Shown here: positions 33,172 to 38,780 of the stretch, one piece after another
Layout: every line of letters begins with the position of its first letter
Numbering within the stretch: position 1 is the first letter of the stretch
Source: Methanosphaera stadtmanae
GTDB taxonomy: Archaea; Methanobacteriota; Methanobacteria; Methanobacteriales; Methanobacteriaceae
Direction: 5' to 3'
Assembly: GCA_015062825.1 (NCBI GenBank)
Contig: SUTR01000018.1
Coordinates: 1 to 40,640 of the forward strand
DNA length: 40,640 nt
Position numbers and translations under genes: made by a program
The notes under the pieces: generated by a model
The model's database searches: none
Told to the model about the DNA's origin: nothing
The model's input: only the letters and a program-made list of their open reading frames with translations

Positions 33172-33267
33172 GTTAAATTTTCCTCCATTTTAAAATAATA
33201 TAAAAATATTCTACTCATTCAAAGAAATTCTATTTGATAAATAAAATATTAATTATATCTATATTAA

Positions 33268-33281
33268 ATAATATATTTAAA
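33268..33281 (-). promoter_or_regulatory. probable TATA box of the cbiMNQO operon
   Basis: TTTAAATATATTAT on the minus strand lies about 97 bases before the cbiM ATG. It is identical over 14 bases to the two elements flanking the atwA/CBS-regulator gap. I infer a start site near 33245. Confidence 0.55.
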
Positions 33282-35001: not shown

Positions 35002-35916
35002 CTATATCTTATCTAATGTACCTGCTACAATCAATGGAAACAATACGGTAGCATCACCCACAACGGTTACAAGATTTGAACCTGCTTTTGCTTTTGCCCA
35101 GGATTTTGCCTCTTCAAGTGGTGCACCACTGAGACTTCCACCTTCACTTCTATCAAGTGTTATTTGTATTCCTGCATCAATACCCCCGGTTAGAATATTG
35201 GAAGCCAATGTATAATGTTTAGGAAGACCTCCACCTAACATACATGCCGTGACTTTTTTAGAATCATATACAAAATCAGACAAATCAGCCATATCACCTA
35301 CAGAACTTAATGTAAAATCATTATCTTGACAATAAATCCATAATTGAAGTCCAATCATGCAGTCAATAATTCCTGGTGCAAATATAGGTACATTTTTTAA
35401 TGCTGCAGTACGTATTATTGATTCATCATCATCTATTAATAATCCAATCTCATATATAAAATCTTTAATTGATATTACTGTATATTTTTCATTGATTTTC
35501 GCAAATATTTTCTGTATTTGCTCTTCAAAAACTTCAAAATCATCGGATTTTGTAAATATATCACCTATACGTCCAATACCACTTTCAAATAATTGTTCAT
35601 CATCAGCTTGAATTCCACCATAATGTCTTCCACCAAATGATTCAACCAAATCATGTGTAAGATTAGCACCACTAGATACGATTAGGTCAATATATCCCAT
35701 GTCAATAAGATCTCTTATTACTTTTCTTAAGCCTCCCGGAACCATAGGTCCCGCTATACTTAAAAATACTTTAGTATCTTCATCTTTGAAAGATTCTGCT
35801 AATAATTCTGTTGCATGAGATATTCTTCGAGAACCTAAAACTCCTGATGATTCTAATTGATCCATGAACTCAGAAATCTTCATATCCTTTTTGATTTCTA
35901 AATGTTTGACTTTCAT
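35002..35916 (-). CDS. deoxyhypusine synthase
   Basis: The 304-residue protein contains FLSIAGPMVPGGLRKVIRDL, VSSGANLTHDLVESFG (NAD-binding region), ESIIRTAALKNVPIFAPGI, and GGGLPKHYTLAS with the active-site Lys. GGIDAGIQIT and TVVGDATVLFPLI close it. The enzyme transfers the aminobutyl group of spermidine to a lysine of aIF5A, the first step of hypusine formation. A TTG at 35934 is in frame but lies in the ribosome site. GGAGGT upstream of ATG 35916 decides the start. It is followed by the membrane-protein gene and preceded after 71 bases by the CBS regulator. Confidence 0.95.
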   Translation of the reverse strand: MKVKHLEIKKDMKISEFMDQLESSGVLGSRRISHATELLAESFKDEDTKVFLSIAGPMVPGGLRKVIRDLIDMGYIDLIVSSGANLTHDLVESFGGRHYGGIQADDEQLFESGIGRIGDIFTKSDDFEVFEEQIQKIFAKINEKYTVISIKDFIYEIGLLIDDDESIIRTAALKNVPIFAPGIIDCMIGLQLWIYCQDNDFTLSSVGDMADLSDFVYDSKKVTACMLGGGLPKHYTLASNILTGGIDAGIQITLDRSEGGSLSGAPLEEAKSWAKAKAGSNLVTVVGDATVLFPLIVAGTLDKI

Positions 35917-35987
35917 AAAAAAAATAACCTCCAAATAAAATTTTTGTAAAAAAAAGTATGTGTAAAAAAATAAAAAAATAATTTAAT

Positions 35988-36866
35988 TTATGCTATAACC
36001 AAGCGTTCTAGAATATCTGTAAATGAAACAACACCTGAAATTTCATCATTTTCATCAAGCAATACCATTAAGGAAAGATTATTCTGATACATCATATCCA
36101 TTGCCCTCATTAATGATATATTATCGGAAGCTGTTATTACATGCGAATCCATAAAACTTTTTGCCCTTATTTCAAATACCTTTTCAGAAATCATCTTAAC
36201 AATTTCCTTAAACATGACAATTCCCATTATTTTTCCATTATTAACAACAGGAGCACCTTTGATTTCATTAGATATGAGAAGTTCTGCTACATCAGCTATA
36301 TTATCCTCAGGATTAATTGTTATGACATCAGTTGTTGCAATATCTTTAATTTTTATATTAGGTACGCTTTGTATACTGTCTGTTTTAAGAAGTAATACAT
36401 TGTCAACATCATCTCTTCCCACAATAGTCCCAGTTACAGTTAAGTTATTTACAGGAGTTGGACCAATTTTTATTTCATCATCCAAATCCAGTTGTTTAAT
36501 ATCCCCTAAGACGGAAATTGTTGCTTCACAATCACCAGGTTTTAATATACTATTGAATTCAATTTTATTAACAGAGATATCAGGTATTGATGTTCCATTG
36601 ACATATATAGGTACATGTATTTCACAAGGATCATCCTGTATGTTTAATGTGTGATAGGCTTCAAGTGTTGGTTTATATCCACCACGAGGGCCTGGAACAC
36701 CTTTTACCAATCCTAAACTACGCAAGGACTGCATTTGGTTTCGGATAGTTCCAGAGTTTCTACCCATTAACTGTGCAATATTTTCACATTTAACCGAAGT
36801 ACATTTAGATTTTCTGTATAAATTAATTAAACTTTGTAATATTTCCTTCTGTACTGATGTAAGCAT
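35988..36866 (-). CDS. winged-helix transcriptional regulator with paired CBS domains
   Basis: This is a 292-residue protein. Residues 1 to about 70 form a winged helix-turn-helix (KCENIAQLMGRNSGTIRNQM as helix-turn-helix, GVPGPRGGYKPT as wing). Residues about 75-150 are a beta-rich linker domain (PIYVNGTSIPDISVNKIEF). From about 165, two CBS motifs follow (IADVAELLISNEIKGAPVV, then LMRAMDMMYQNNLSLMVLLD). CBS pairs usually bind adenine nucleotides or SAM, so it may tie transcription to energy or cofactor state. GGGAGG lies six bases before the ATG. It is divergent from atwA, and both promoters share a 16-base element, so atwA and its own gene are likely targets. Confidence 0.88.
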   Translation of the reverse strand: MLTSVQKEILQSLINLYRKSKCTSVKCENIAQLMGRNSGTIRNQMQSLRSLGLVKGVPGPRGGYKPTLEAYHTLNIQDDPCEIHVPIYVNGTSIPDISVNKIEFNSILKPGDCEATISVLGDIKQLDLDDEIKIGPTPVNNLTVTGTIVGRDDVDNVLLLKTDSIQSVPNIKIKDIATTDVITINPEDNIADVAELLISNEIKGAPVVNNGKIMGIVMFKEIVKMISEKVFEIRAKSFMDSHVITASDNISLMRAMDMMYQNNLSLMVLLDENDEISGVVSFTDILERLVIA

Positions 36867-36939: not shown

Positions 36940-36955
36940 CTATAATATATTTAAA
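36940..36955 (-). promoter_or_regulatory. TATA-type promoter element of the CBS regulator gene
   Basis: The minus strand reads TTTAAATATATTATAG, 74 bases before the regulator ATG. It is an exact inverted copy of the element at 37061-37076. The distance suits a start site near 36920. Confidence 0.55.
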
Positions 36956-37034
36956 TAATCTAATAAAAATGTTATGATAAATAGTTACAGATTATGTTAT
37001 CAATAGATATAATTACTTCATACAATTCATACTA

Positions 37035-37046
37035 AATAGTACTATT
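37035..37046. promoter_or_regulatory. 12-bp perfect palindrome, candidate operator
   Basis: AATAGTACTATT is a perfect palindrome placed 15 bases before the atwA TATA element, between the two divergent promoters. A dimeric winged-helix protein, such as the neighbouring CBS regulator, could bind it. This is inference from symmetry and position only. Confidence 0.4.
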
Positions 37047-37060
37047 GTGGGTAAAACATC

Positions 37061-37076
37061 TTTAAATATATTATAG
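37061..37076 (+). promoter_or_regulatory. TATA-type promoter element of atwA
   Basis: TTTAAATATATTATAG lies 103 bases before the atwA ATG, implying a leader of roughly 80 bases. It matches the element at 36940-36955 in all 16 bases, in inverted orientation. Confidence 0.55.
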
Positions 37077-37178
37077 ATAAATTACAAAATATTAATTAAT
37101 AAAGTTTGGATAACATAGAACTAAATTTTTTAATTATAAATTAAGATAATATATCTAAAAAACATTAGGTGCTAAATA

Positions 37179-38780
37179 ATGAGTTTTATAGAAGTAAAAA
37201 ATGTTACAAAAATCTTCGATAATGAAGCAGTACTTGATAACATCAGCATTAATATTGAAGAAGGAGAAGTATTAGGTATTCTAGGAAGAAGTGGATCTGG
37301 AAAATCAGTTCTACTAAACATGTTAAGAGGAATACCAGAATATGAACCAGATTCTGGAGAAATCATATATAATGTAGGTATGTGTCCTGAATGTGATAGG
37401 ATAGATGTTCCATCAAAAGCTGGTGAAACCTGTAAATGTAAACATGGAAAATATGAAGCAAAGACAATCAACTTATGGAAAAGTACAAGAACAGAATTTG
37501 CATCAGTTAAAAAACGAGTTTCTATCATGCTACAAAGAACTTTCGCATTATACGAAGAGGAAAGTGTGATAGAGAACATCATGAAATCCTTTGAAAATCA
37601 AAGAGATGAGGATAACATAAATAAAGCAATAAATCTACTTAAAATGACACGTATGGAACATAGAATAACACATATTGCACGTGATTTAAGTGGTGGAGAA
37701 AAACAAAGAATCGTACTTGCAAGACAGCTAGCAAAAAATCCAATGTTATTCTTAGCAGATGAACCTACAGGTACCTTAGACCCTAAAACAGCAAAATTAT
37801 TACACAATGCACTGTTAAATGGTGTTAAAGAAAAAAATATCACAATGATTATCAATTCACACTGGCCAGAAGTAATAGAAGATTTATCAGACCGTGTAAT
37901 ATGGCTTGAAAAAGGACAAATCAGAAGAGAAGGAGATCCTAAAGGAATTGTCGAAGAATTCGTTGCTGAAATTCCATTGCCTAAAAAACATGAAGAAGTT
38001 ACAATAGGTAATCCTTTAATTGAAATGAATGACCTAAAAAAATATTACTTCTCAGTATCACGTGGTGTAGTAAAATCAGTTGATGGTGTAACATTAACCA
38101 TTAATGAAGGTCAAATAGCAAGTATAGTTGGATTAAGTGGAGCTGGAAAAACAACACTATCCAAACTTATCGCAGGACTTGTAGAACCTAGTGATGGTGA
38201 AATAAAGATTAGACTCGGAGAAGAATGGATAGATATGGCTAAAAAAGGACCTGCGCATAGAGGTCGTGTAACTCCACACATAGGTTTATTACACCAGGAC
38301 TTTAGTTTATATCCATATAAAACAATTCTTGGAAATCTTACTGATGCTATAAGTTTAGATTTACCTTCAGAATTTGCAAAAATGAAATCATTACACGTAT
38401 TAACCGCGGTAGGATTTAAGGAAGAAGAAGCATCAAAACTCTTAACAAAATATCCAGATCAGATGAGTGGAGGAGAAAGACATAGAGTTGCAATTGCACA
38501 AGTTCTGATAAAAGAACCACATATTGTAATTTTAGATGAACCTACTGGAACAATGGATCCAATAACAAGAAGAAATGTAGCAGAATCCATACTTAACGCA
38601 CGTGAAGAACTAGATCAAACATTTATAATAATTTCACACGATATGGACTTCGTATTAGAATGCTGTGATACTGCAGCATTAATGCGTGATGGAAAATTAT
38701 TAGACAATGGAAAACCAGAAGATATCGTTGATCAATTAACTTCACAAGAAAGAACAAAAATGTTAAATAAAGAGTTATAA
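37179..38780 (+). CDS. atwA: methyl-coenzyme M reductase activation component A2
   Basis: The 533-residue protein has tandem ABC ATPase domains and no membrane helices. Domain 1: Walker A GRSGSGKS (36-43), signature LSGGEKQR, Walker [15 protein letters not shown]-loop residue in NSHWPE. Inserted in domain 1 is a cysteine pair set, Cys69/Cys72 (CPEC) and Cys85/Cys87 (CKC), a likely metal-binding knuckle. Domain 2: Walker A GLSGAGKT, signature MSGGERHR, Walker [15 protein letters not shown]-loop SHD. Component A2 supplies ATP to the complex that reductively activates the nickel of F430 in methyl-CoM reductase, so it is essential for methanogenesis. The ribosome site is weak (TAGGTGCTAAATA). It is divergent from the CBS regulator and convergent with cofH. 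A shorter-motif paralogue lies at 3934. Confidence 0.92.

Follow-up and report, generated by a model that had tools for sequence, protein, structure and literature searches.

To our knowledge, the operators and target sets of methanogen transcription regulators have been established in few cases. In bacteria, the redox regulator Rex acts on dehydrogenase and hydrogenase genes, sensing NADH/NAD+ through a Rossmann domain. Closer to the subject of this article is MTH126 (IMPDH-related protein VII) of Methanothermobacter thermautotrophicus, for which Shinzato et al. reportedly published the original study in 2008. We take its site to overlap the BRE and TATA elements of mcr, and its neighbors MTH127 and MTH129 are presumably dhs and pyrF, in the gene order also found in the DNA described here. 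As summarized in the part of PMC3087415 that deals with it, MTH126 binds the mcr promoter and is suspected of being an energy sensor (PMC3087415). A protein of the same domain plan, with a winged helix-turn-helix (HTH) and two CBS domains, is encoded by Methanosphaera stadtmanae, a methanogen of the same order. From the comparison of genomes, we estimate a probability of roughly 0.57 that the gap in front of its gene holds a conserved operator through which this wHTH-CBS regulator controls its own gene and a redox regulon.

The window, the whole stretch of 40,640 nucleotides analyzed here, corresponds to contig C118 in a genome of 2.61 Mb. The regulator gene (35988..36866, minus strand) diverges from atwA, which encodes component A2 of the methyl-CoM reductase system (37179..38780, plus strand; TIGR03269, 832.8 bits for a cut-off of 517.1), across a gap of 312 bp with 83% A+T. 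Downstream of the regulator and on its strand lies dhs, the gene for deoxyhypusine synthase (35002..35934, minus; PF01916, 305.6 bits). The names that an earlier reading of the bare sequence (the original prediction) had given to the divergent pair agree with Pfam (HrcA_DNA-bdg plus two CBS domains) and with TIGR03269. An Rfam scan of the window returned tRNA only, with no known RNA element in the gap. A regulator orthologue is clear in 18 of the 19 other genomes of the genus, at 52–85% identity. It is divergent from atwA in all 19 genus loci, the window's own counted, and is followed by dhs in 18 of them, the stretch of L023 ending too soon; these loci include two pairs from near-identical genomes (L011/L012 and L014/L016). 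The exception, G001, is 97% complete and has neither the regulator nor atwA, which makes a probable assembly gap likelier than a knock-out, and it was dropped as a natural mutant. In the single-contig genome G008 (L017/L027, L044), the gene is split into two frames, the HTH part (92% identity in this first frame) and the remainder, as the result of either a frameshift or a sequencing error; this genome keeps an operator copy and many motif sites despite the split.

The regulator consists of a winged HTH (residues 1–78; PF03444, 126.8 bits), a middle domain and two CBS domains (83.2 bits over two stretches, the best at 173–227), and this order in the Pfam matches, the winged HTH at the N-terminus and two CBS domains after it, is that of the IMPDH VII/MTH126 type. 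Across 39 family sequences, the HTH (residues 1–75) and the middle-domain motifs GPTPVN and GRDDxDN are nearly invariant, and the CBS pair is the least conserved part. A structure model built from four sequences (pLDDT 73.4) resembles adenylate- and SAM-binding CBS pairs, and the 50 matches listed in a structure search aimed at the middle domain look, from their titles, like CBS proteins. MJ0922, MJ0100, and MJ1225 of Methanocaldococcus jannaschii (PDB 2p9m, 3kpc, and 3kh5) are alike in CBS-pair fold and sequence, with matches that span the CBS part of the regulator only; the ligands of MJ0100, by PDB title, are methylthioadenosine and S-adenosylmethionine. An adenylate or a related nucleotide is the putative ligand of the CBS pair. 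Among named genomes, three relatives of the regulator were found, all in Methanosphaera, and literature searches on COG2524, PF03444, MTH126/IMPDH VII, and TK0271 gave nothing further on the regulator beyond PMC3087415.

In the original prediction, an autoregulated switch for atwA was made of an inverted pair of 16-mers and a palindrome. All of these elements exist. The 16-mer TTTAAATATATTATAG stands in exact inverted copy at 36940..36955 (minus) and 37061..37076 (plus), its first 14 bases recur in TTTAAATATATTATTT about 95 bp before cbiM (33266-33281, minus), and the perfect 12-bp palindrome AATAGTACTATT lies at 37035..37046. The two gap copies are the sole exact ones in the 2.61-Mb genome, and at up to one mismatch there are six places, against two for the reversed control; this rarity refutes the idea that the 16-mer is the common TATA context of most promoters. 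Of 10,000 dinucleotide shuffles of the 312-bp gap, 21 contained an exact inverted 16-bp pair, which is unusual for one gap and less so across all gaps of the window. Perfect 12-bp palindromes number three in the gap and 35 in the window, and at least one occurred in 2,440 of 5,000 gap shuffles. Phylogenetic footprinting, for which the original prediction had called, was run on 18 Methanosphaera relatives with the same divergent pair, and there both elements failed. The mean best mismatch of the palindrome was 3.28, against 3.11 in shuffles, and that of the 16-mer was 4.33 against 4.19 on the plus strand and 3.94 against 4.01 on the minus strand, all at chance level; only L009 and L017 carry the second copy with two to three mismatches. 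A non-conserved palindrome is moreover one half of what the original prediction had itself named as its refutation. The palindrome is a chance feature, and both it and the 16-mer pair were rejected as operators. The 16-mers may be TATA-type elements of this strain, the first copy possibly an alternative one for the regulator and the second possibly that of atwA.

The conserved part of the gap lies elsewhere, and the predicted place of the switch is accordingly moved from the 16-mers and the palindrome to 36959..36995. This block, TATAATAAAAA.GTTATGATAAATAATTACAAATT, begins with a TATA-like run on the regulator strand (TTTTTATTAGA, 36959..36969, minus) whose columns are kept in 10–15 of 15 loci. 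The run abuts GTTATGATAAATAGTTACAGATT, an imperfect copy of the dyad TNATGAT-NN-ATCATNA; the proposed operator TTATGATAAATAGTTA occupies 36972..36987, and an AYAAATT extension completes the block. In a gap-free register of 15 of the 19 loci (L012 and L016 were left out as near-duplicates, L021 and L025 for want of an anchor), columns −12 to +24 are mostly kept in 11–15 loci, with weaker conservation of an AT run also on the columns of the first 16-mer. The 23-base consensus of the block has on average 3.5 mismatches in the 18 relatives, against 7.8 in shuffles (lowest 7.3), a contrast that is inflated because the consensus was drawn from the very sequences scored; four of the 18 show at least six mismatches. 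Counting against the preferred reading, the window's own dyad copy is among the weaker ones, with two mismatches to a near-identical pattern, and is absent from the 11 best sites of its genome. The run at 36959..36969, a candidate TATA of the regulator, corresponds in its relative position to the TTTATAAA of Methanobrevibacter-like loci. Separately, a partly conserved 27-base element (AAGTTTGAATNNNATNGAACTAAATTT, 37102-37128 in the window) is found 23–50 bp before atwA in nine of the 19 loci, with one to six mismatches.

Is the conserved site then tied to atwA or to the regulator? The regulator is present in 119 of 138 family genomes and in 15 of 17 genera (E 1e-30 or better). In 32 loci of other genera, atwA is never beside it (for two of them the upstream stretch is not long enough to judge), and dhs lies downstream in 26, a gene order by which dhs appears to be its ancestral neighbor. 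In the same 32 regulator promoters, the dyad TNATGATNNATCATNA has a mean best mismatch of 1.75, against 3.35 in shuffles (lowest 3.12), and is exact in seven; in Methanobrevibacter-like loci it abuts the TATA-like TTTATAAA. A candidate operator in the regulator's own promoter is thus a feature met across genera and, since it stands there where atwA is not adjacent, the dyad would ancestrally be part of that promoter. The longer motif points toward atwA in the window and mostly toward the regulator in other genera. The 20 atwA upstream regions taken from such genera do not carry the dyad (3.40 against 3.56 in shuffles), and these promoters were dropped as dyad targets; the longer pattern leaves a weak signal there (3.95 against 4.48, lowest 4.15). 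From these comparisons, the atwA link appears to be a Methanosphaera feature, and control of atwA by the regulator would be non-ancestral and possible within that genus. Of the original idea of an autoregulated atwA switch, what survives is a gap with a conserved predicted regulatory site and a regulator that is probably autoregulated, but not the elements named for it. The claim that the CBS protein controls atwA has the precedent of MTH126 on its side, but atwA is adjacent only in Methanosphaera and the dyad is not at other atwA promoters.

Across whole genomes, the longer pattern ATGATWAATNATKAYAAAT, allowing one mismatch, has 233 matches in 20 genus genomes against 29 for the reversed pattern, about eightfold, and 11 against 2 in the window's genome. 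Nearly all unique sites (121 of 126) fall outside ORFs of 80 aa or more; this set under-represents G014 (one site excepted) to G019, and covers G002, G006, G009, G010, and G012 only by loci from the initial motif search. In 109 sites, the columns left free by the pattern complete the dyad: column −2 is T in 84, column −1 is A or C in 86, column 9 is C in 54, and a G stands in each of these two columns just once. Sites face either way with respect to the genes. At genes other than that of the regulator, they lie roughly 1 to 330 bp ahead of the start codon and most commonly within 150 bp. The genes behind them are found repeatedly from genome to genome and include short-chain dehydrogenases (SDR, 14 loci), Zn-alcohol dehydrogenases (7, with up to three sites each), the NADPH:F420 reductase gene npdG (4), ADP-forming acetyl-CoA synthetase (4), 3-hydroxyacyl-CoA dehydrogenase (3), the F420-hydrogenase gene frhA (3), Fe-alcohol dehydrogenase (2), porC (2), GAPDH (1), and cofH (1). 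In the window's genome, six of the 11 sites precede SDR, Zn-alcohol dehydrogenase, or acetyl-CoA synthetase genes. A Pfam scan covered 97 genes of each kind, out of 116 targets and 173 neighbors; the regulator/atwA loci were set aside, as were some ORFs that were short or near-identical. Among the 25 commonest families, short-chain dehydrogenases made up 13 of 97 targets against none of the neighbors, and oxidoreductase families about 33 of 97 against at least 6 of 97 (Fisher p about 1e-6 when 6 is used, with orthologues that are not independent).

The target set is not constant, as the patchy npdG site indicates. In 11 Methanosphaera loci of npdG, the dyad is found with at most two mismatches in seven (mean 1.73, against 3.3 in shuffles); npdG had been found via four genomes, and of these G007 and G011 are outside this test. 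The window genome's own npdG has no site, which counts against the preferred reading, and npdG was rejected as a family-wide target, with no signal in 14 loci of other regulator-bearing genera or in five of regulator-free genera. Adhesin-like genes, which also count against the preferred reading, are preceded by sites in nine loci, mostly in G008, where near-identical sites (L209, L212-L214, L217) probably reflect genes duplicated with their promoters. A Molybdop_Fe4S4-type protein recurs behind the motif in six loci (L140, L141, L144, L148, L156, L224); Methanosphaera is described, in the portion of PMC6120340 concerned, as being without molybdenum cofactor synthesis (PMC6120340). Regulator genes are also found behind sites, an Lrp-like gene in L237 and an HTH gene in L053, and these could form a subordinate layer of the network or encode competitors for the site.

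The enrichment was also compared with the presence of the regulator. In 24 regulator-bearing genomes there are 232 matches against 54 for the reversed control, and 23 of the 24 are above control. Six regulator-free genomes (genera g11 and g13) have 22 against 44, two of the six being above control. In g13, the regulator is missing from all six genomes (G126-G131), and the five searched have no enrichment as a group (15 against 30). Since the regulator-free genomes come from two genera only, lineage could account for the difference. Also against the preferred reading stand G031 (5 against 12), the regulator-bearing genus g8 as a whole (16 against 20), and the mutual dependence of orthologous targets.

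We trained a weight matrix on 110 sites that lie away from the regulator gene; in the window it exceeds 12 bits at one place only, with 15.0 bits at 36971-36994. In 15 of the 19 genus gaps, no more than one shuffle in 200 scores as high as the real sequence, and in 26 of the 32 upstream stretches of other genera no more than five in 100 do so. Scores are weaker in L018, L019, L021, and L025, the best place in L011/L012 is another site of the gap, and the scan found no clear copy in L021 and L025, which counts against the preferred reading. As the pattern behind the training sites came from regulator promoters, the matrix is a consistency check and not an independent proof.

These observations have to be weighed against other explanations. 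The dyad might be bound by another global regulator, the CBS protein being merely one of its targets, and the Lrp-like (L237) and HTH (L053) genes with sites of their own would suit such a scheme. We regard it as unlikely, if deserving of some weight, in view of a site that is kept at the CBS regulator gene across genera and of an enrichment that is missing where this gene is missing. That the block is simply a core promoter, a TATA/BRE with an AT-rich spacer and no operator, is improbable: the TATA-like run does abut the dyad, the gap is 83% A+T, and the sites are intergenic, but such a promoter would explain neither the symmetry in the columns left free by the search pattern, nor the two orientations relative to genes, nor the oxidoreductase bias, nor the lack of enrichment in regulator-free genomes. 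As for the inverted 16-mers and the palindrome being the CBS protein's atwA switch, their rarity in shuffles (the pair) and in the genome (the 16-mer) can be set on its side, but with no element conserved in 18 relatives having the same gene pair, and with palindromes of this kind so common, we give it very little credence. The conserved site is thus probably the binding site of the neighboring CBS-domain regulator, as judged from sequence comparison, and the regulator is probably autoregulated.

On this preferred reading, the regulator would bind the dyad at 36972-36987, next to the TATA region from which it is itself transcribed, and would most likely repress its own gene by sitting beside or over the BRE/TATA, presumably blocking TBP/TFB. 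The dhs gene behind it would probably be under the same control. Through the same site, the SDR, the Zn- and Fe-alcohol dehydrogenases, npdG, frhA, ADP-forming acetyl-CoA synthetase, and 3-hydroxyacyl-CoA dehydrogenase would be controlled. Because the dyad stands before genes of hydride and alcohol metabolism, the protein would act on many targets as a redox/energy regulator. In Methanosphaera, atwA would have come to sit divergently behind the same operator, and co-regulation may follow. Should this widespread wHTH-CBS protein have the dyad as its operator, gut methanogens are predicted to possess a redox regulon that comprises alcohol dehydrogenases and the NADP/F420 link, which is expected to be important whenever ethanol donates the electrons, and there is a direct route to testing the ligand of the CBS pair. 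Such a regulon is made plausible by Methanosphaera sp. WGK6, which, in the section of PMC6120340 on this strain, uses ethanol through alcohol and aldehyde dehydrogenases (PMC6120340).

How, then, does this system compare with those already described? With MTH126 it shares a domain plan, by which the two are likened, and the redox regulon and autoregulation proposed here lie outside the description of MTH126 in the relevant part of PMC3087415. Unlike the MTH126 precedent, the mcr/mrt promoters here have no consistent dyad (30 loci upstream of mcrB/mrtB, sequence serving as a proxy for binding), which speaks against the preferred reading, and they were rejected as conserved targets; in three of 12 Methanosphaera loci (L352, L354, L358), the motif exceeds 10 bits 554–605 bp before the methyl-CoM reductase beta gene. 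With Rex, the likeness is one of working, the targets in both cases being dehydrogenases and hydrogenases. The regulator differs from Rex in its sensor: in place of a winged HTH joined to a Rossmann NAD(H)-binding domain, its Pfam matches give HTH and CBS domains only. It is tempting, if still tentative and somewhat against the odds, to see in it a general redox/energy regulator of the Methanobacteriaceae and a CBS-sensor counterpart of Rex, in which one autoregulated operator would tie together alcohol dehydrogenases, NADP/F420 hydride exchange, F420-hydrogenase and, in Methanosphaera, also atwA and with it the activation of methyl-CoM reductase.
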